From assembly GCA_012845835.1 (NCBI GenBank), contig JABAKD010000030.1, positions 13,735,076-13,799,075 on the forward strand: a DNA stretch of 64,000 bases, written 5' to 3'. The notes beneath the pieces are model-generated. The model saw only the letters and a program-made list of their open reading frames with translations. It ran no database searches and was not told the DNA's origin. This DNA comes from Undaria pinnatifida. Its lineage: Eukaryota > Sar > Phaeophyceae > Laminariales > Alariaceae. A program made the position numbers and the translations under genes. Positions 9,614-64,000 of this stretch are shown here, piece by piece (within the stretch, counting starts at the first letter, position 1; each line of letters starts with the position of its first letter).

Positions 9614-11701
9614 ATGGCAGCAGCAAGAAACCCGAACAACGAAGGGTACATCTCTGACAGTACAGGACGTGGGTCACTGTCACCAGGAGGAGGAGGGGGA
9701 GGAGGAGGTAGTGCAAACAATAAATCATGGAGGGCGCATGGTGTTCCGGGAAGAGGAGGACGACGCAAAAGACCACCCCCTCGACCTAACCACTTCCTCT
9801 CCGTGCGGATTGACAACGCCAGCATTTGGGAAAATGTGAGTCCGATTCTTGTACGCCTTGAATGTGAAGCCTTTCCGCGCCTATGGGAGGGGTTACAGTC
9901 CATGTACTGAACGCAAATGCGTCTGTCTGTTGCAGCGCGGAGTATTGATCGGTCGATCGCCTGGCGGACGGTTGCATATCGTCTCGTAAGTACCCTTGTC
10001 ATGAATGTGGAGCATCGTATGAAGTACGAGAACGCGACTGCCGTATATACGTCCTGTTGATCCTGAGGGTGTCAGCTAGACAGAGTACTTGCTGGCCTAT
10101 GCATCTGGATCTAAGTCTACATCCTAGTCTAGGAACTTACAGCAAACGCGACCGCCGTGATAAATCGACGACCTTTTTTGGCAGACCACATGATGACCGC
10201 GTCGCACTTACACTCCTCCGTTATTGCGTAATCTTAATGAAGGTGTTGGCGGTCCAAGAAGACATCGTGGATAGCCAGCCCCATCTGAAAGAAGCGGCGA
10301 TACCCGTGCAAGACTTGCACCTGACACTGTTTGTGGCCACCTTGCACGAACAAGACGGTAGCCTGCAGGTGGATACCTAACGAAAACAGTGTAGCTAAAC
10401 TCGCACCGTGTGTCCTTGGTATACAACACTGTTGAGGTAAAAGCCGGGGGTACAGCATGCCGACTTTAGCGGCGCAGGACTCATGAAAAGCCGCAGATCA
10501 CCGAACAGGCTCTTCTGCCCAAACCTAGTACCTGGTACCGCGAAGCTGAGAGCGTGCAAACCTCTTTTCTCGAAGAAGCCGCACTTGTATGGGCCCTTTT
10601 CGATATACATACATGCAAGCCTTGCAAGTAATATTCAAACGCCACCCCTTTCTCATGTCCTAAATCCTAAGTCCTGGGCCTTTAGTGGTTTTCCAAGGCA
10701 ATGCCATAACAGACTCTAGGCTGCCGCCAGCTAGTCCGGCACTTTTTGAATATTTTCTTCGTCGACAACTGACACAGCAACCCCCGATACCGCTCCCCGC
10801 ACAGCGCGCAAAGGAGGCCCTTCAAAGCGCTGGAGACATCCTGCTAGGGCACGGCCTTTCCTCGGAGAGTTCTGGCGCCACCTGGAACTCAGCCAAGACC
10901 AATGCGCAGGGAGAGCAGCTCAGACTCAGACCAACAAGGCCGAGCTTAGCCTGTGGCGACGAGCTACCTGCGACTCTCGAGGACGCTGTTGGCGCGACCA
11001 GTCTCTCCGACCCGCACGGCGTACGGTTTACAGGGGTCGGCGTCGATGGTGGAGGCGACGGTGGTGACGGCGACGGTGGTGGTGGTAGAGGTGGCGATGG
11101 TGGTGGCGGCAACGGGCTCGTGGCACCGACAATCGGCGACGTGGTATCTCCAAGCGATCCCAAGGAGACTAAGCTACTCGGTGGCGTGGATGGCGACGCC
11201 CCACGCGGTGCTCTGGAGGGTCAGACCTCACCGCCACCTGCACCATCGTCAGCAGCATCAGGAGCAGAGTCGACGATGTCGCTGTCATTTCGAGGCCTTG
11301 GCACCTTCAACGACAAGGTGCTGTATGCGCATCTGGTGGAGGACGGGCAAGCCGCGAGGCTTCGAAGCCTCGCCTCGGCGCTACACGCTCGGTTTTCAGA
11401 GGCGCGTCTTGTAGACGCGGCGCCGTCTAGAAGCGGACACGCGGAGAAAGAAGATCGGCCGTTTGACTTCCAGCCTCACCTAACGATAATGAAGACCTCC
11501 AAGCTCAGAGACAGGCGTACGTTGATCCCGCCTAGCTCGCACAGCCGTCACCGAGAATTAGTGTTCGGCAGCCACAGCCCGGTAGCCGTCGAGTTGTCGA
11601 GCATGCTAGAACGAGAAGAGGCGGTGGCAGACGGGGACGGAGAATCGCGACCGTACTACAAATGTATGCAGAAGCTTGATTTGCGCAATCCCGCTAGCTA
11701 G
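9614..11701 (+). CDS. AKAP7/LigT-like 2H phosphoesterase
   Basis: Three exons in phase 0: 9614-9835, 10243-10368 and 10805-11701, 414 residues. The ATG at 9614 was chosen for its ACCATGG context; ATG at 9446 is an alternative. Exon 1 ends with the family's opening strand (RPNHFLSVRIDNASIWEN). Exon 2 holds the first catalytic HxT (DLHLTLFVATLHE; His100, Thr102). Exon 3 holds SFRGLGTFNDKVLYAHL and the second HxT (FQPHLTIMKTSKLR; His341, Thr343), matching AKAP7 order. Family knowledge: 2H enzymes hydrolyse cyclic nucleotide phosphates, and vertebrate AKAP7 relatives cleave 2-5A or bind AMP. About 150 residues are inserted between the motifs, including a Gly/Asp-rich run near 11047-11110, so this protein is longer than usual. 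Its substrate in algae is unknown. Confidence 0.85.
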
Positions 11702-20300: not shown

Positions 20301-23300
20301 AAATCGAAGAAACAACCCAACCGGAAAGGAGAGCCAAAGCTCGGAAAAGAAACATAATAAAATGAAATAAAATAAAGTAAAGTAAAACCAAAATAAGATA
20401 ATCCGAACACGAGCCAAAAACCTGGACACGCAAGGAGGGAACAAAGGGGAAAAAAATACCCCAGAAAAAGACGAAAGGTGCTATGTACCTACTAGTCGGC
20501 CTGGTACCTTGCTACCCTGTCTGCCATCTCTTTCCTGCCTTCGTCCACCGCGGTCTCCCTTCTATTCCTCCTGTTGCCCCCCCTGCCCCCATTCCCTTGG
20601 ACGGCTTTCCTTCTACTCTTCCTGTTTCCCCCCCTCCCCCCTTTGTGTTCTTCTCATTAAACCAAAATACCTTGTAAAAGAGAGAAACAACGAAAGAAAC
20701 CAAGACAAAATACATAAATAAATAAATAAAAAGGGGAACCAAAGCACGGGAGATAGAAACATACCCCGAGCATGAGCCAAAATGGACATGCAAGGGGGAA
20801 AGAAAGGGAAAAAAAAATACCCCGGAAAAAAGAAACAAGTAAAAGAAGGAAGACTGGGAGGGCCAAATAAAACAGGCTCGTCACCTACCCACCATGCAAG
20901 ACTCCCTTCATAAGGATAAGAAGGGGAAAGAAAGAAAAAAATAAATTCACGGAAAAATCAAAGTACCAAGACATCACATTCCGAGCAGCCGCAGCAGTTG
21001 GCGGTACGAGTGGCATAGATAGAAAGGTTCCACCTACTAGTCGGCCTGGTACCTTGCTACCCTGTCTGCGGTCTCCTTCCTACTTTCATCTACCGCGGTT
21101 TCCCTTCTACTCCTCCTGTCCCCCCCCCTGCCCCCATACCCTTGTGCGGTGTTCCTTCTACCCCTCCTGCTGCCCCCCCTCCCCCCGTTCCCTTCGACAC
21201 CACCCACGGCGGATGCGCGGCGCTGTCTACTCAGCTTTGCCTCATCCTCGTGCCACCTGCCCATGAACCGTTCAGCTGCTTCGAGGACCCCCCGGTACCA
21301 CTTGCCCACCTTTTTTGCTGCAGTGGGCCACAGCGCGGTCCCAACTCCAAAAACTAAGGGGGAGTGTTCCGTTGATCCCTCGTTGGCTTTGAACACCCTA
21401 AGGTCCTCAGCTATGGCTCTAGGCCAAGTCTTGACTTGTCCGCCTGGTTTCGGGTTCTCCCCACCAGCGATCGTCCCGAACATCAACCGACGGGGCAGTC
21501 GCCCCTTGTGTTGTCGCACCAGGGCCCCGGCAAAGAAGAGCCGCCGTTTACGGATGGTCGTTTCGATGCTCTCGCATCGTGTCATCGTGAGGGCCTTCGC
21601 GTACGAGAGGGTGGTGTGGTCGGTGCGTAATCGGCGCTGGAAGCCAATGACTCGCAAAAGGACTTCGTGGTGGGCTGATCGGAGCTTGGCGAAGTGGTCC
21701 GCATTGAGGGTCCACGTCACACACCCGTACAGCAGGGTCTCAATGACCTCGGCCTTCAGCATGCGGACTTTCAGACTAAGCGGGGCGGTCGTCCTGTCAT
21801 ACAATTCCGGGCCAAACCGTTTGAGGCATGCCCGCATGAGACGGATCCGTCGTTCGATTTCGAGCGAGAGGTCAGCGCTTTCGTGGATAATGCCGCCTAG
21901 GTATAAAAACTGGGTCGTCTGTTTATACCTCTGGCCTGATGATTCGATCGCGAGCGGTGGGGCGAGGGATGACTGGTCCGGTGTTCGTAGCAGCATCGTC
22001 TCTGTCTTCTTTTCCGATACCGTGAGGCCTGCTGCTTCGAAGACAGTCACGATGACTGTCATCATTTTAGCAAGGCCTTCCGCCGACTTCGAAACAATTC
22101 CTGCGTCATCTGCGTACAACATGCCCCACACAGCCCTTTGCACGCATGCCAACGGTTCCTCTTTTCCGACTGCACTGCCCTCTTCGAGGTGAACCAAATC
22201 GCTTACGATGCTTTCGTCTTTGCTGAAGCGTACCAGCACGACGTGTATCGCAGCAGCGAAGAACACGTTGAACAGTAACGGTGATAGCACGCAGCCTTGC
22301 CGCAGCCCCTGGGTGACATTAAACCAATCCGAGTGCTCGCCGTCATCCGCACGCACGCGAGCCCGCATGCCTTCGTGGAAGTTGCGGATAACTGTAAGCA
22401 TCTTGGTTGGTACGCCAAGGCGTGTGAGTACCTCCCACAACAGTTCCCGGTCGACAGAGTCGTACGCTTTCTGCAGATCGATGAAGCACATGTACAGGGG
22501 GATTTTCCTCTGTCGTCCGAGCTCTTGCAACCGGCGCACGACAAACAGCATGTCGACCGTCGACCGTGCGGGACGGAAGCCGCACTGTTCTTCAGGAAGT
22601 ATTTCCTCGGCCTCGCAGTAGTTGCTAAGGCGGGACGCAACGATTTTCAACAATATTTTGCCTGCGTGGGCAACAAGCGAGATCCCTCTGTAATTGTTGC
22701 AATCAGTTCGATCCTTTTTTTTGTGAAGGGTCTTGATGATAGCATCTTTCCATTGCTGGGGGACTTCGCCCGTTACCCACACGTTGACAAGGATATTGTG
22801 AAAACACTGGACGAAAGCGGGGTGGTCAAGTTTTAGTAGTTCGACCGGGAGACCGTCTGGTCCAACGGCTTTCCAATTTGACATGCCCTTAATCGCATCC
22901 ATCATCTCGTCCATGGATGGTTCATCTCCAAGCGATAATTTAAGCGGTCGCGGTGGCAAGAGGTCGATGATCGTGGGATCGAGTTTCAGCGATTTCGTGT
23001 TCAACAGTTTGTGGTAATGCCCCGCCCATCGTTCACGAATTCGCGCTTGATCCCGCAACAACGTGCCATCCTCGTCCATAATAAACTGCTCGCTCCTCGC
23101 TTTTGTACCTTGCAATCCCACCGTACTCTTCTTATACAGCAAGGTGATTGGTGATTTGGCCCTGCAATGCCAACTGCAATGAGCACGCGGACAAAAAAAT
23201 ATTTCCATAAAAAAATAAAATATGCAAGCCAGCACACCAGATAGCTATTGATAACACCAGTCCATCAGCAGTAAAGAACGAAAAAAAAAAAAAGATGAAC

Positions 23301-49073: not shown

Positions 49074-51575
49074 CCAGCCTGCCTGCCTGCCTGCCTGCCT
49101 GTCCGGCTGCCTGTCTGTCGGTCTGTCGGCCTGTCTGTCTGTGCACCTGTGACCTGTCCGTCTGTTTGCGTTTTTGTGATTTTTTCTTCTCTTCCTTCTG
49201 CTTTCATTGGAACTACAGAAGATGACCCCCCCTCCCCTCCCGCCTCCCACCCGTCCTCACACCCCTCCCGGGTGCAACTCCACCGTGCTAACCACGTTGA
49301 CAAACTTTACCATCGCAACCAGAGAAAGGGCACAATGTGTGTGCTACTGTAAGGTGTACTGTCAGGTGTATGCCCTTACCGTTACAATGCCCCTTCGACG
49401 TAAAGCAAGCTGACTATCTACGCCACCGATTGTGTTCCTGCAGACAGGAGTGTCGGCTTGAGGGTTTTTGGCTCTGAGTTGTTGTGGGACTCTTGCTTTG
49501 TTACTTCGGGCAGGGGCACGGGGAGGGGGAGAGACATCCGTTGGGGTGGCTCTCGTGATCGCGAACGTGCCGTCTTTTATCAGGGACCATCTCCGCGCTC
49601 GGGAGGGGAGGGTGTTTGCAAATATTTCCCCCTCGCGCTTGTGTTGTCATCGGGGGTTACTGGATTCTCCTCGCTTCCCGTGAACCTGATTTTTATTTAG
49701 GGGTAGTGGGTGTGCTCATGGTGGGGGGTGTTGCGCGAATTTTCCCGGCGTGTTCTTCATCGGGGGTCACGGGATTTCGTCCCCCCTGCCCCCCCCCGGC
49801 GACGGCAGTCACTGTGATTGGCTACAGGCTGGGCCAGCCAAGATTCGGATTATCCTTCCCAAAGTCGGTACTCGCGAACCACTGCGGGTTAGAACTTGAA
49901 AATTAGAGCACGTAACCCTGACATCACGCTGCAGATGCGAAACCATTGTGTATGCAAAATTATATCATGTTCGAAATTCCGACTCGATCTCACCGAAATA
50001 TCCGCGGCGGCTAGAAAGAGCCAATTTTTTTTCCACTATATTCGTTGATAAAATCGTTGTTCCCGATCAAGATGAAAATTGGTGTAGACGTTACGAAGGA
50101 AACAAGGAGAAGATCGACATCAGTTTTATTGCCCAATTCGTTGCCCATCAAGAGATATGGCCAACACACGAGTCTATACGTAGTACAAGTAGTAACGAGT
50201 ACAACAAAGGTTTTTGCTGCAATGCAGCAATCAGTGTTGAGGTTTCGATCTGAAATTATTATCGTGTTGGTGACGCGCGTACAAAATTATCCCAAGCTGA
50301 ACCATTTCATTGTCATTTTTATTTTCCAAGGAAGTTATGGCCTATTTATTATGTTTCCGATTTTTGAATCTGTCCTATCCTTACGAAAACATAAAATGAC
50401 AAATGTTCCAGTGCGGAATGTGTTGTTGCATGAACAACCCCGTGTCCACATTTCACGTTCAAGTGCGTAAAACTGAGCGCTGCATGGACAATCGACTTTT
50501 CATTCCGGTTTATGGCTGGCCCAGCTCGTACATTGATAGTTCGAAGTGTTCGAAATTTTGCGAGGTGAGGGTGATGACGATTGTTCGTGTCCGTGGCGTG
50601 CTATCAACGACAACGCAGGACAAGCACGGAGCGAACTACGAAGGGCTTCGGAACACGTTTCGGCGGGTATACACCGAGGAAGGGGCGGCGGCGCTCATGT
50701 CGGGGGTAACGCCAAGGGTGAGGAAGGAAGGAAGGCGGCGACGGGGGCGGCGTGATAACCGAGGTTCAAAACACGCGGACGTGCTAAACAAACCGACGAA
50801 CAAAACAACCCGACGTGCGAAGCAACCCGACGTGCGAAACAAACCGACCTCCCAAGTAATTCGACGTGCGAAACAAAGCGAGGGGCAAACCGATTTGCTG
50901 TTGAGCTGTAAATCGCGACAGTCTAGGATGAAGTGTGCGCGACCGCAAATATCACCTGCTATCGACAGAACAGCGACCGTTGCGGCGAAACGCTCGTCAT
51001 CGAGCTTGTTCCACGTCTGTAATATGAGTACTACTGCTGCTACATCTTTCACCTCTGTCCCGTTCCCACTTAATGCATGCGCTGCGTGTGCAGCTTGTGC
51101 ATTGTATGCGAAAAAATTATGCGTTGTGTGCGCACTGCATGTGCTGATGTATAAGGTGTGCGCTATACGTGTAGTGTATGCGTTATACTCGTATGCGCAA
51201 TGTATGTAGTACATATGCAGTGCATTCGCTGTATGTGCAATGTATGCGCTGTATGCACGCAGCTCTCTTTTGGTGTTGTTCCCCCTAGTGACCCCGCCCC
51301 CTTACGCTCTGGAAAGCGAGGGACTCCCGAGAGGAACGGAGAACGCTCGCTCACTCGCTTTACCACATGCCGTAGATGTTTTCCTCTCCAGCTCCTCGTC
51401 GATTTCGCGTGATGTCGTGTTGTAGCCCTTGCAACGCTTGTAATGCTGGCCCCTGTGCGCACACGATTTTTCCGGTTCCGCTCTTGGCCAGGTGACCTGG
51501 ATTGGCATCGGTGGCTTCGTGTTCTTCGGGGTGTACGAGAGCGCCAAGACCCAGCTCATGGGGCTGGGTGTGTAG
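46200..51575 (+). CDS. Mitochondrial-carrier-family S-adenosylmethionine transporter (first exon not found)
   Basis: Six in-phase exons: 46200-46356, 46535-46629, 48197-48394, 48671-48805, 50619-50717 and 51492-51575. All three carrier signatures are present: [24 protein letters not shown] and [15 protein letters not shown]-carrier hallmarks also occur: [31 protein letters not shown], and the C-terminus [20 protein letters not shown]. Family knowledge (PET8/SLC25A26/SAMC): six-helix inner-membrane antiporter importing SAM for organellar methylation and exporting S-adenosylhomocysteine; in plants it also serves plastids. The first helix's start is missing, because exon 46200 begins mid-helix ([14 protein letters not shown]) in phase 0. 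The 5' exon lies upstream and was not recognised. ATG 46209 is internal. Introns hold expanded simple repeats. Confidence 0.9.
47124..47308 (+). repeat. 11-base minisatellite (GGTATGGTTAA)n
   Basis: About 15 copies of GGTATGGTTAA with a few variants (GGTAGGGCTAA, GGTATAGTTAA) inside a carrier-gene intron. Confidence 0.9.
47871..47951 (+). repeat. (CCCT)n microsatellite in pyrimidine-rich intron end
   Basis: About 18 CCCT units, within about 450 bases of almost pure pyrimidine that lead to the acceptor at 48196. Frames through it (Ser/Leu/Pro-rich on plus, Arg/Glu/Gly-rich on minus) are artefacts. Confidence 0.9.
48908..49145 (+). repeat. Compound CTGT/CTTG and (CCTG)n tetranucleotide expansion
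   Basis: A run of CTGTCTTGT units (48908-48975) passes into about 30 CCTG units with single-base interruptions, then CTGT again. It lies 100 bases after the donor at 48805, in a 1.8 kb carrier-gene intron. Confidence 0.9.
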
Positions 51576-57630: not shown

Positions 57631-60600
57631 CTAGAACAGCCCCAAGAGACGCGCCAAGCTGTCCTCCCCAGCCAACAAGCTCTGTACCGACAGGCAGGCG
57701 ATTGCCACCATCGCCAGACGCCCGTTGTGGAGTTCCCGCTCGCGCGCGTGCATTTTTTTTCTCATTTGCATGGCTTTGTCTGGCGCCCTGCTCGGGGTTT
57801 CGTTGTCGGAAGGCGTAGCCGGCGAGGGAGGGAGGGGTAGGGGGAACGGGTAAGCACGATGCAGCCGTACGAGGGGGCTTGGCCCTTCGACCACTGCAAA
57901 ATTGAACCCACGTTGCCTCCAAGTAGTTGGTCCCGCAAAAGTAGATGCGATTCTAAAGGGTTATTCACAGGAGGAAAAGGGGGGACGGAGACAGTCTAGA
58001 ACAATCCTTAACCCACTTACTGCTGCAGTGAAAAAATCGGCTCGACTCAAATTTCAGGCAGTGTGCCGCCAAAAAATAGAGCGCAGTTGCAAAGGGATTA
58101 ACTCCATTTCGAGAGCATCATTCTCAACGAAAACTACCCACAAAGACGATTATAGTAGGGAAATCGGCGGTAGCTACATATCAGACGCGTACACGCGGGC
58201 GTTACAGTAACAAAAAACAACAAGACAAGAAAAAAACTCGCTGTTCCCGCGCTCAATCCTTCAACTAACGAGCGGTAACCGAGGTTGGACGCAAGTCAGG
58301 CAGCAACCAACCAAAGTACCCTCCTCCGCTGCAGGTGGCAGCGCCATTGCAAGCGCCCCTCAGAACGAGGGCTGTACAGACCTTGGCCCAGCTCAGCTCC
58401 GATAAAATAGATAAAATCGACGATACAATCAAGGTCTGTATGGTACCTCACGGTAGATGCGTCAAAATACGGCGCAACCTGGCCTTATGCTGTGGAACCC
58501 AAAAACCATTGAGCTTCAAAACGCGTAGAAAACGTGTAAAAGTGCAAATACCCGACAACAGTATACCCGACTTGAAACATTTACCTAAACCCCAACCCCG
58601 CCCGGCTGGGAAACACTTCGTAGAGTTTGGCTCAGGTTCGAAAAATGGTTGAAATATAAAATATACTTGACTTCAAAGCCTAACTCCAACCTAACCCCAA
58701 GCGCCCAAGAAACTTTGCGGAAGGAAGATGTCATGACGACTTATTAATAGCGCGGACCGTCAACCGTTTATCGCACCTGCGCTTCGTCGTAGGGCGTAAG
58801 CACTGCTGCTCAGAATCTTTGTTCGTAGAAGGTTCCAGATAAACGAAAACAAATACAACACAAACGAAAACGCCTCGCACTACAAATAAAAAGTAAGGAT
58901 ACCTCCCTCGCTTACGAAAATCAAACACGCCGCTCACGTTACGGCTGGTCTCTTCTCCCTCGCCTCCTGGCCCTCGAACCGGTCCTGTATGTTGTTGAAC
59001 AGCAAGAACCCGCACTCCAGCACGCCCACCACCATCACCACACGCAACGCCTGACCCGGGTAGTTTGCCAGAAAAAAAAAGTTAGAACAGCAGGTAATAC
59101 ATTGACGAAGGTGGGCCAAGGTCAATACGTTTTGCCAAGGTTAGGCCAATGTCTATATATTTCATCAACACTGGTTCTAGGTCTATAGATTTTGTCTATA
59201 CATTTCGTCGAAGCTGGCCCAAGATGTACTTGTATACACATCCCTCCAACAACCCTCAAGGGACAAAACACGCAGAACACCGCCCCCACCCACCTGCTGC
59301 GGCGACAGACTATTGAGGTACACGAATGGGGACTCGTGCATTGCTGCGAGCGCATCGGCCTTGAGCGTCGCTAGGCCGCTGACTCTCTCCATCTCAACCG
59401 CCGTCCACGCCAGCACCGCAAACATGCTGAGAGATACAAGACATGCCCAGACAAACAGACGAGAGCAAACAAGCATTTCGAGATTTCGAGGCGAAGGGGC
59501 AGACGATACGGACACGAGAGAACAATAAAGTCAAGAGCGTTTGCATGGGGGCGGCAAAGACTTGTGCATTTTGCGGCGTGCTACGAGGTAGTACTAGCAT
59601 TGCCTTCAAAGGTCTGCCTGCTGTCCTTAAGGTCGCCCCAGTACACGAGCTGCCAGCGTGGCGATTTCGCCTTCTGATACTCACTAGCACGTCAGCAAAG
59701 CAGTCAGCTGCGAATTCTATCAAATAGCTCAACACTCAACGTCGTAACCCGATCGTTAAACGTAAATTAAATACTCGTGAACTAAACAAACTGGTCAACG
59801 CCCAACCCTGCAACCCGAAAGTACAAACGAAAAAAAAACGTCGGGAGTCTTCCGCCTCCCCTCCCCTCCTTACCTCAGCCTGGCGTGCTGGAGCTCGACC
59901 TCCCGTGCTAGCCTCCTTTCCCCGTTGGTCATGTGAGGGATTTCATCGATCTCCATTAAGCGTTCAGGCTCGCCATCCCGCGCCATAGATATCGGCCCCA
60001 TATCCCACGACCAGACTCCCGTGTGCACGTGGAGGGGGACGTCAACTGTATCCACCTCATCCTCCTCATCCGCTGCGTCCACTACCGTGTAAGCGTCCGC
60101 GGCTGGCGACCTCGCCGGCAAGAACGGAGCCGTAAGAATCGCCACCACATCTCCGTTCTAGTGAGAGTTGCGGAGGCGTTAAGGGTAAAAACGAGGCGGG
60201 GACAGGGGAAACAGTATGACACCGGGGATGGCGGGGGGGGCAAGGGGGTCAGTGCGAGCTGCTTCAGAAAAAAGGAAATGCCAATGCAAAGAAAGAAGAA
60301 GGCGAAGAAGCGGCATAACTGGACATACTGGCAAGTGAGAGCCAGCAAAGAGCTAAAGCGGGGGCGGGGTGGTAGGAATAGGGAGGGGGCGAGGTCTCAT
60401 GGCAATGGGAAATACGCGGCGGTCAACCCTCTCTGTCTTTCTTCTTACCCGCAGGGGCCTGTTGAGAGGAACCAAGCGGCCGTTGACGTAAGTAGCCGCC
60501 ACCCTGCAGGTCTTAGAGTCATGGAGCTCCCTAGCCGCGTCGCACATCTGTTGGCGCGTTGGGTAGCAGAAGAGCGGAGATGAGATTAGAAGGCACGCAC

Positions 60601-63127
60601 AGCTAGGGTGACAAAACGCTCTGATCCTAATGTGGGGTTACCACAGTGTTTGAGACCGTCCATGCCACGTGTGTACCTGGACGAGAACGAAGGAGACGTC
60701 CATGCGCTTGACATATCCGCATCTAACGCGCACCAGTAGGGTTAGTAACACCCACGAAGCGCTTCAAAAATTTCCGTATCTATAGTAGCCTTTCGCCTAT
60801 CAACCCTTGACGAGAGAGCGGAGTCCCCCCCCGCTCCACAAATCTACCCCTCCAACCAGTCAGAATCACTCCCAACCCTCCAACCCCACCCCGTTCAACT
60901 CCTCCTTACAACCTTCCAGCCACTAAAACGAACAAGTAAAACGATTCGCATGCAAAACATGCAAAAAAAAAAACGACACAAAACTCAACACGTACCAGGT
61001 ATCAGTGTATCTACTTTCAAGAACTAAACGACGTTCGCATAATGCTCCGGAACGCGTAGGGTGCGGACTCTTCTCTTATTTCCTTACCGTAGCGTTTCCG
61101 GCGAGGTCAAGGATCTGTCCCTGCGGGTCGAACACGAACCGCCTCTCCTGCGCACGCTTGAGCGAGTCCCGCACGTTGGCCGAGTACGTGTCGCCGCACC
61201 CCAGCGCACACGCCTCCGCGCTCGTCTGCAGCTCCGCCAGCCAGGGCAAATTCTTCGGGTTCCCGAAGCTCCGCGCCACCTGACTCGCCGCCATCCCGAA
61301 GTTGGCCACCCTGTCCATGTCATCGGTCAAAATCTGCACCTCCACCGGGTGCCCCTGCAGCGTAACGGCGGAGTGTAGCGCACGGTAATTGTTCGGCTTG
61401 GGTACCGCGATGAAGTCTTCTACCCTGGGGGGGCTGATGGGGGCCAGCAACCCGTGCACCGACTCCAAGAGCTCGTAGCACGCCGCCCGCTCCCGCTCCG
61501 AGTTCTCGAAAGAGCTCCTCACCACGCCGTCGGGCCCCGGCTGGGGATGCAAAGAAAACACCACCTTAAAGTGAATACAGTCCAACACGTTGCTCAGGAG
61601 CCCCCCGTTCCGTGCCATGGACCTCCAAACCGTGTATGCGGGCTTAACCCCCACCGTCACTCGGAAAGAGGGCGCCCTGCCCTCGAGGCAAGCGGCGCGC
61701 CCCAGCAGGTCTTCCAGCCGGCGTCGCTCGCTTTCGAGGACTTTCTCCGTGTGGCCTGTCTCGGTGGACCTCATTCCGAGGAGGTTGGTCACACGGGCGT
61801 GTTCCCCCGGGTGGAGGGTCTTGAAGCAGCGGTCTTCTAGTTCTGTCTTGATTTCCCAGAGACCCATCCGGCGTGCGAGGGGGACGAACACGCCCATCGT
61901 CTCCTGCGCGATGCGGACCTGCTTGTGCTCGGGCATGGCGCCCAAGGTGCGCATGTTATGGAGTCGGTCGCATAGCTTGACCACCAGCACGCGCCAGTCC
62001 TTGCTCATCGCGATCAGCATGTGGCGTAGGTTATCTGCCTGCTTAGCCCCCTCCTTAGCTGCGTTTCCGCCCATCTCGTAGTCGCTCGCGGTGAACGCCG
62101 ACACGCGCCCTGGGATCTTTGACAGCTTCGTCTCCCCTTCCACGATCCGCCTTACCGTCGACCCAAATTGCGTCTCGATATCCGCGAAGGCAAGCCGCGT
62201 GTCCTCCACGGTGTCGTGAAGCAGACCCGCCACAAGCGTCTCGGCGTCCATCCTCAAGCCCGCCAGTATTCCCATCACCTCCACCGGGTGCATGATAAAC
62301 GGATCCCCCGACTTCCTCCTCTGTCCCTGGTGCGCGTGGTACGCCACCTGCACAGCCACCCCGATCCAGTTCTGCTCCGCCGGCGACAGATACGCCGCAT
62401 CCTCCAACACCTGGCTGTTAAACCCATCCAGCTCTACTGCCTCCGCGTCCGTTACACACCACCCAAACGTCGCGCTCAGCTGCAGCAGCCCCCGGTTCAG
62501 GTGCGACAGCTGCTCTTCCGGAGTCAGCGACCTCAGCTCCCACGGCTGCATTGGCGCTGAGGAGGGCCCAGAGTCTCCTACCAGCCAGTCTGGTCCAACG
62601 ACACTGCCCTCGTCTGCGGACAGCCCCTTCGGCCAAGACGCAGCAGACTCATCGCCCGCGGGGCACGCCGAGGACCGCAGCGCGACCGAGCCTGTGCCGC
62701 GGCGACGCCCCCGATATCGTCCACCGTCTACGAATCCACCGCCCGCGACGACGCCATTGCCCGGGACTCTTGTTCTTCTAGCCGGTTCCTGGCGCCCGGC
62801 GCCGAAGTGGCCTACTCTGTTAATGCTACCCGAAACTACCCCCCCCCCGCCGCCAGTCCCCCGCCTATTTCGCTCGTCATGTCCCAACCCCTCCGCCCCT
62901 CCGCCCCCCACCACCATCTCCAAGCCATAGCCGCAACCGCTGCTGCTGCTTCCGCTACCGGTCTTTCGGCTAGTGCTGCTACTACTGGTGCAGGGCTGTC
63001 CTCTCATAGTAGGCGTTATTCTTCCTTCAAAGGCCGTCTTCGCTGTGCCCGGCTGCACCATGAAACCGCCGCCGCTCCCCAGCAGGGAAGCGGCCACGAG
63101 AGCATATACCACCGATGTCGAAGTCAT
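57631..63127 (-). CDS. Plastid RelA/SpoT homologue fused to a C-terminal LHC-like chlorophyll-binding domain
   Basis: Six in-phase exons: 63127-61088, 60547-60449, 60157-59874, 59426-59294, 59050-58938 and 57787-57631; 941 residues. The N-terminus is signal-peptide-like with an early Phe. HD (ppGpp hydrolase) at about 255-440 has RRKSGDPFIMHP, GLLHDTVEDT and KLCDRLHNMRTL intact. The synthetase-like domain, about 485-640, has FIAVPKPNNYRALHS and VEVQILT with altered key residues. TGS, about 662-725, spans exons 1-3 (VNGRLVPLNRP, NGDVVAILTA). Exon 3 then runs in frame into an LHC-type entry (HTGVWSWDMGPISMARDG) and helix A (EVELQHARLSMFAVLAW). Exon 5 is helix B (VVMVVGVLECGFLLF); exon 6 is helix C (ERELHNGRLAMVAIACL). 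Glu801, His804 and Arg806 with Glu908, Asn911 and Arg913 reproduce the LHC chlorophyll-ligand and ion-pair pattern. Inference: thylakoid-anchored alarmone enzyme. The usual ACT domain is absent. Confidence 0.88.
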
Positions 63128-64000
63128 GGAGCTACCACCCCGCAGCCACTGCTGCTGCTAATACCTTCGTTGCCGTCAGAAGATACACCGCCGTGTACTC
63201 ACAGCAGTGTGTATTAAGTTCTACCGGTCACCTTCGTACCAAAAGGCGGACCGGATAAAGCCTTTGCGCCGAAAGACGCTAGCGGTCTATCGAAGAGAGT
63301 CCTGCTCGGGGACAATCGGCGGCGGTGGTGGGCGTTGAACGGAAGTCAGAGCGACAGGAATTAGCTGGTATAAAAGTTACCCTCAACACAGCAGTAGTAC
63401 ACACACGAAGGATCGGATGTTGAATTTCGACCGCATCACCGTGTGGTCTACCAGAAGGATACCAAAAATAGGAGAAGAAAATTGGGAGAAGACGAAAAAA
63501 AAAAATCGCGGCCGGAACCAACAACAGTCAACGCGGTCAACGTGCCATGTTCAATGTTCGTGTTTCCTCTCCGAAAACCCGCATACCATACGAGTACCAG
63601 GTGTGAAACGTTGGAATATCTCAACCTAGAGAATCGTACAAGCAGCAGCAGCAGAACTACTGCTAGTGTTCCAGCTGGAAATATCGAACTAACAGGTGTC
63701 AAATATAAGCGAAAGGTGCCGACCGTCCATGCCCGGGCAATCAGCAATGGAGGGGACGTGGTTACGGCTCGATGCGGAGAGAACGCTCCACGTATCCGAA
63801 ATAACACCACGCAGCTCACCACTACCACCTATTATTACTGAAAATAGAAAAAAGTAGTACGTACGGAATCAAGACAAGGCAGCTCGTAGAGCAAACGACA
63901 GAGGCAAGCACACGCCACACTGTAGCAGCAGTACGAGTACGTAAGACGTCAGTTTGTCAGCTTCTAAGTTTGAAATTGGAGCGTCAAAACATCAAAACGC
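63128..64000. other. 5' flank of the RSH-LHC gene; no other gene
   Basis: Likely promoter and 5' UTR of the minus-strand gene. Two frames of about 130 codons overlap at 63443-63841 on opposite strands without family motifs; short CAG runs lie near 63640. No TATA box was recognised with confidence. Confidence 0.45.

Follow-up and report, generated by a model that had tools for sequence, protein, structure and literature searches.

The closest described counterpart of the gene reported here appears in one sentence of Avilan et al. (2019), in which an RSH1 of Ectocarpus siliculosus that bears a chlorophyll a-b binding domain is listed among a few domain acquisitions of the RelA/SpoT homologues (RSH) (PMC6881373). 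The initial annotation of the present locus had taken a fusion between an RSH and a light-harvesting-complex (LHC) domain to be undescribed, a view that does not hold given this Ectocarpus case. Sections 7-9 of the same paper do not discuss the distribution, the catalytic residues or the LHC residues of the Ectocarpus protein (PMC6881373). No further publication on the fusion was found among the open-licence PubMed Central papers listed by the searches, and the text of a 2022 review contains neither 'chlorophyll a-b' nor 'brown alga'. As far as our searches of that literature show, the breadth of the fusion clade, the hydrolase-only pattern of its brown-algal members and the lack of another intact hydrolase in the Undaria genome are undescribed.

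Several better-known proteins resemble parts of the fusion. Arabidopsis (land-plant) RSH1 is likewise a long RSH of the plastid, in which an HD domain is combined with a synthetase domain minus the ATP-binding Arg; in the sections cited, the equivalent residue is Val and synthetase activity is absent (PMC6881373). In planta it is said to act as the main hydrolase but, unlike the fusion, it is without an LHC domain and has a C-terminal part resembling that of bacterial RSH (PMC10107265). Phaeodactylum RSH1, of the red RSH1 clade, is also an ochrophyte protein with HD, synthetase and TGS domains, but it ends in TGS-ACT and is given as bifunctional (PMC6881373). Ferrochelatase II is a plastid enzyme with an LHC-derived C-terminal hydrophobic (CAB) segment, whose removal is reported to raise turnover (PMC3563542); it is a tetrapyrrole enzyme with one short segment, whereas the fusion carries a full LHC domain, predicted to have three helices, on an enzyme of nucleotide signalling. 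The LHC domain itself matches the FCPI / Lhcr-type antenna proteins of photosystem I, but these are stand-alone antenna subunits.

Gene model and domain organization

The gene lies on the minus strand of the window (the whole 64-kb stretch of Undaria pinnatifida DNA analysed), where six exons between 63127 and 57631, all joined at GT-AG junctions, give a single frame of 941 aa. Its features are as follows.

63060..63127, minus strand: presumed signal peptide, with Phe (aa 22) at the presumed cleavage site between GGG and FMVQP (seen in the sequence and in the pattern listing)
61088..63127, minus strand: exon 1, N-terminal presequence, HD hydrolase, RelA_SpoT and start of TGS, aa 1-680 (open frame 61076-63157; gene model; HD_4 and RelA_SpoT matches)
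60449..60547, minus strand: exon 2, middle of TGS, aa 681-713 (gene model and Pfam; identical residues in P0001-P0003)
59874..60157, minus strand: exon 3, end of TGS, linker and start of helix A with Glu-x-x-His-x-Arg at aa 801 (single open frame 59870-60157)
59294..59426, minus strand: exon 4, remainder of LHC helix A and loop toward helix B, up to aa 852 (gene model and alignment)
58938..59050, minus strand: exon 5, LHC helix B with the conserved Glu (gene model and LHC alignments)
57631..57787, minus strand: exon 6, helix C with Glu-x-x-Asn-Gly-Arg at aa 908, C-terminus and stop (gene model and alignment)

Searches with hmmscan placed four Pfam domains in the protein: HD_4 (258-424; E 6.9e-46), RelA_SpoT (494-615), TGS (665-722) and Chloroa_b-bind (796-926). 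The last of these spans exons 3-6 and scores 50.0 bits against a cut-off of 22.3 (E 6e-13), which supplies the helix similarity in profile searches on which the initial annotation had made its reading depend. RelA_SpoT followed by TGS is the order of the long RSH1 homologues. None of the protein's seven Pfam matches with E no greater than 1 is an ACT domain, and Chloroa_b-bind occupies the place after TGS. ACT is usual, though not universal, in the extended RSH1 family, the majority of which is said to carry it in the sections cited (PMC6881373). Since it is absent here, the protein appears RSH1-like rather than a typical RSH1, yet Avilan et al. (2019) still file the Ectocarpus protein under RSH1.

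The junction between the two halves falls inside exon 3. TGS is completed there (VNGRLVPLNRPLR followed by NGDVVAILTA) and the same open frame enters helix A; the open reading frame and the gene model thus agree with the initial proposal that 60157-59874 is one open frame running from TGS into helix A. Exons 59426-59294, 59050-58938 and 57787-57631 were likewise correctly read as following in matching phase, the frame staying open as far as the stop at 57631, soon after helix C. An alternative start of exon 6 at 57779 was rejected as out of phase and giving the wrong C-terminus; 57787 is in phase. The signature motifs also lie where they had been placed, as ELQHAR at 801 in helix A and ELHNGR at 908 in helix C. 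Three separately modelled relatives (P0001-P0003) show the same read-through of helix A (QHARLSMFAVLAW) and into helix C, in agreement with the exon junctions of the window gene. The partial protein P0028 of Discosporangium mesarthrocarpum stops inside helix A, at the position of the exon 3 boundary.

Three other features were seen in the window. A 735-aa stop-free frame at 21040-23244 (minus strand) contains a reverse transcriptase domain (RVT_1, E 7e-35) and represents a retroelement, possibly a recent one; an open frame at 10664-11698 (plus strand) matches the AKAP7 2'5' RNA ligase-like domain (E 6e-12); and 50400-51206 (plus strand) gives a weak, sub-cut-off match to mitochondrial carriers (E 4e-4), perhaps one exon of a carrier gene.

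Distribution of the fusion

With residues 660-941 as query, seven proteins were found. Three of them (P0001-P0003: a EukProt gene model, the Ectocarpus sp. protein P0002 and a Scytosiphon promiscuus protein) align along its entire length at 72-76% identity and possess all four domains. The other four, which align over 23-28% of the query, are RSH proteins that have ACT-type domains (PF13291) and lack an LHC domain. P0002 shares the domain order of the window protein and is presumably the very protein meant by Avilan et al. (2019), so that their E. siliculosus RSH1 is probably an ortholog of the Undaria protein. Compared with P0002, the HD, synthetase and TGS parts of the window protein are 85-97% identical and the LHC part 79%; against the three brown-algal relatives, identity is 77-81% in the LHC part and 54-56% in the linker.

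With the catalytic half of P0002 as query, at least eight proteins having both RelA_SpoT and Chloroa_b-bind were found among the best 120 of 7326 matches (P0001, P0002, P0003, P0030, P0031, P0032, P0033 and P0045). P0030 is from Chrysoparadoxa australica; P0031 and P0032 derive from transcriptomes and bear the label complete. P0034 is a ninth fusion by alignment, with the same domain order and an LHC score of 20.5 bits against the cut-off of 22.3. Left out of this count were twenty close relatives (P0008-P0027) that have no TGS or LHC listed, cover 84-94% (mostly 90%) of the query and are presumed to be single-exon pieces; the partial proteins P0028 and P0029; and P0035 of Rhizochromulina marina, in which no LHC match was found. 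A census with the LHC half of P0031 drew on 4349 candidates and gave 12 matches with E no greater than 1, of which none but P0031 itself has RSH domains; it missed all other known fusions and so says nothing about absence. P0045 is 1477 aa long, with long insertions around the synthetase domain, a retained synthetase Arg and an LHC-like end.

The independent Ectocarpus, Scytosiphon and P0001 models, together with Chrysoparadoxa and the transcriptome products, make an artefact of gene prediction or assembly unlikely, and the relatives' gene models and the transcriptome products led us to reject it. Two adjacent genes, or an assembly join, misread as one gene are extremely improbable, as exon 3 holds parts of both halves within one open frame and the same order recurs in independent gene models and transcriptome products; the latter recurrence also answers the concern, raised at the outset, of an assembly join inside exon 3. 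Comparative sequence evidence thus indicates that the RSH-LHC fusion is genuine and conserved across several ochrophyte lineages. Cleavage of the chain within the plastid, yielding an RSH enzyme in soluble form and an LHC protein on its own, is a different matter, and one that we consider improbable. Among the brown algae, no part but the N-terminus is less conserved than the linker, LHC polyproteins exist in other algae, and multi-LHC chains of up to 1048 aa occur among the PDB matches, all of which would suit cleavage; an invariant Trp in the linker, within a short WPW-like motif, and the occurrence of the halves together in every lineage where both were found speak against it.

In a 41-sequence tree of the catalytic region, which includes few named RSH1 and RSH4 references, the fusion proteins and P0035 fall on one side of a split with a support of 100. 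Inner supports are 51-91, leaving the order of the deeper lineages unsettled. This topology fits, without proving, a single origin of the fusion and its later loss in P0035.

Catalytic residues and other alarmone genes

Catalytic residues were compared in ten fusion proteins (the window protein, P0001-P0003, P0030-P0034 and P0045; P0003 without its N-terminal part). The HD box LLHDTVEDT is intact in all ten, and so is Asp-Arg-Leu-His-Asn (DRLHN). The Gly of the synthetase ATP loop is gone from every one of them and the following Arg from 8/10, P0034 and P0045 retaining the Arg; in the window protein Gly-Arg has become Val-Gly. Further synthetase changes are found in the four brown-algal fusions, namely QIRT to QILT, NGY to NNY and an Arg to Lys. 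Loss of Gly or Arg is not special to the fusion, since one or both are also missing from the RSH proteins P0079, P0070 and P0117 outside the clade. From the degraded synthetase loop of the brown-algal members and the parallel with Arabidopsis RSH1, we predict that the brown-algal fusion proteins catalyze hydrolysis only, a prediction that does not extend to P0034 and P0045. The (p)ppGpp turnover initially proposed would accordingly be narrowed, probably to hydrolysis alone.

A bifunctional synthetase/hydrolase resembling Phaeodactylum RSH1, in which the LHC part acts as a light-dependent switch, would be consistent with the retained RelA_SpoT domain, whose catalytic-region Asp and Glu are in place in the fusion proteins, and with the statement that red RSH1 members are mostly predicted to be bifunctional (PMC6881373). 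However, the ATP-loop Gly-Arg, another Arg and the QIRT Arg are all altered in the four brown-algal fusions, and we regard bifunctionality as quite improbable beside hydrolysis only.

RelA_SpoT matched the 511-Mb Undaria genome four times. Three loci account for these matches, namely the window gene, C61 (with two exons) and C44. The C61 locus (L035) keeps the synthetase Arg; its HD site is ruined, reading LAVHMQQLQS versus LADRLHNMRT in relatives, and the HD..ED box is absent. At C44 (G000:C44:533059-548891) the synthetase exons are accompanied, about 15 kb upstream, by an HD-like exon without an HD..ED box, the two being assumed to form one gene. Both loci resemble synthetases of the RSH4 type whose HD site is ruined. 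An HD_4 search of the genome at E up to 10 gave three matches, the fusion with E 6e-45 and the two loci just described with E 0.004 and 0.29. No second intact hydrolase was found in this exon-by-exon search, which scored only the best candidates and might overlook a hydrolase divided among small exons; the two other HD_4 matches are below the cut-off and lack the HD..ED box. Within that search, the fusion is the sole intact hydrolase found in this genome.

N-terminus

A hydrophobic start followed by Phe is a mark of proteins bound for complex plastids of red-algal origin. Such a start, with Phe after Ala, Gly or Ser, is present in 8/9 of the N-termini by a lenient pattern applied without a chance control, P0028 being the exception. 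By this pattern, the N-termini resemble those of plastid-targeted proteins.

The LHC domain

Helix A Glu, His and Arg, helix B Glu, and helix C Glu, Gly and Arg are invariant in the 8/8 aligned LHC domains. The brown-algal domains also retain the helix C Asn and the Gln. In LHCII, chlorophyll is ligated by the helix A Glu and His, by the Glu in helix B and in helix C, and by this Asn and Gln. The Glu and Arg of the helix A and helix C motifs correspond to the reciprocal charge pairs of the LHC superfamily. The non-brown proteins P0030-P0034 have R, V, Y, Y and V in place of the helix C Asn, with the adjacent Glu, Gly and Arg kept, so that the Asn is lost from 5/9 of the aligned fusion domains; these replacements make full pigment binding uncertain in the non-brown domains. 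The AlphaFold model of P0002 has three long helices (798-830, 857-888 and 898-937), in a region with block-mean pLDDT of only about 44-68 that the fold search barely covered. Among the best 60 PDB sequences, FCPI-7 of 9uh3 is the best single-LHC match over most of the domain (E 2.1e-16). Elsewhere in the genome, at G000:C27:1403056-1516962, LHC exon matches form a cluster in which seven similar exons matching the second half of the LHC profile are spread over about 114 kb.

The LHC part may instead be a membrane anchor or a photosystem docking surface that carries no pigment, the fusion serving location rather than sensing. Absence of the helix C Asn from five domains while the charge-pair residues persist is what would be expected if the fold outweighs the pigments, and in ferrochelatase the CAB segment is described as altering kinetics, direct pigment binding not being evident in the part of that work cited (PMC3563542). 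The invariance of helix A Glu and His and of helix B and C Glu throughout the aligned domains argues against a pigment-free anchor, as does the retention of the presumed ligands Asn and Gln in the brown-algal domains, and we hold this alternative to be possible but rather doubtful.

Proposed role

We propose as the probable reading that the protein is a (p)ppGpp hydrolase of the plastid, kept at the thylakoid by its LHC module and tied to pigment supply or thylakoid assembly. It would be a nuclear-encoded long RelA/SpoT homologue that is imported into the plastid and in which the ACT and associated domains after TGS have been replaced by a three-helix LHC/FCP-type domain. With its HD site intact and its synthetase site degraded, it is predicted to hydrolyze (p)ppGpp, and insertion of the LHC module would fix it in the thylakoid membrane. 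The fusion would probably be the main or only (p)ppGpp-removing enzyme of the plastid, with two RSH4-like synthetases acting in the opposite direction. Binding of some chlorophyll, at the least, by the LHC module is most likely, and pigment supply or thylakoid assembly may thereby govern how much hydrolase is present or how active it is; a thylakoid that is being built or lit would then keep the alarmone low. A hydrolase that needs antenna-like insertion, and perhaps pigment, would hold ppGpp low at intact thylakoids and would fail to do so if pigment or insertion fails. In the work cited, a lower proportion of photosystem II centres to antenna accompanies ppGpp in diatoms, in moss and in Arabidopsis (PMC10107265), and (p)ppGpp is described as preventing the chloroplast SRP from associating with FtsY, its receptor (PMC12104861).

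A stronger version, which we put forward only tentatively, makes the LHC module a sensor: chlorophyll or carotenoid binding, or pigment state, would control the stability or activity of the sole plastid (p)ppGpp hydrolase of brown algae, so that light harvesting would directly set the alarmone. This would be an old ochrophyte solution, predating the split between brown algae and Chrysoparadoxa.

With a predicted hydrolase and a pigment-protein fold joined in one conserved chain, the way in which plastids couple (p)ppGpp, an alarmone of bacterial type, to light and to the condition of their photosynthetic machinery becomes directly testable. Should no other hydrolase exist in the brown-algal plastid, plastid gene expression in the algae that build kelp forests would have a single control point in the fusion.
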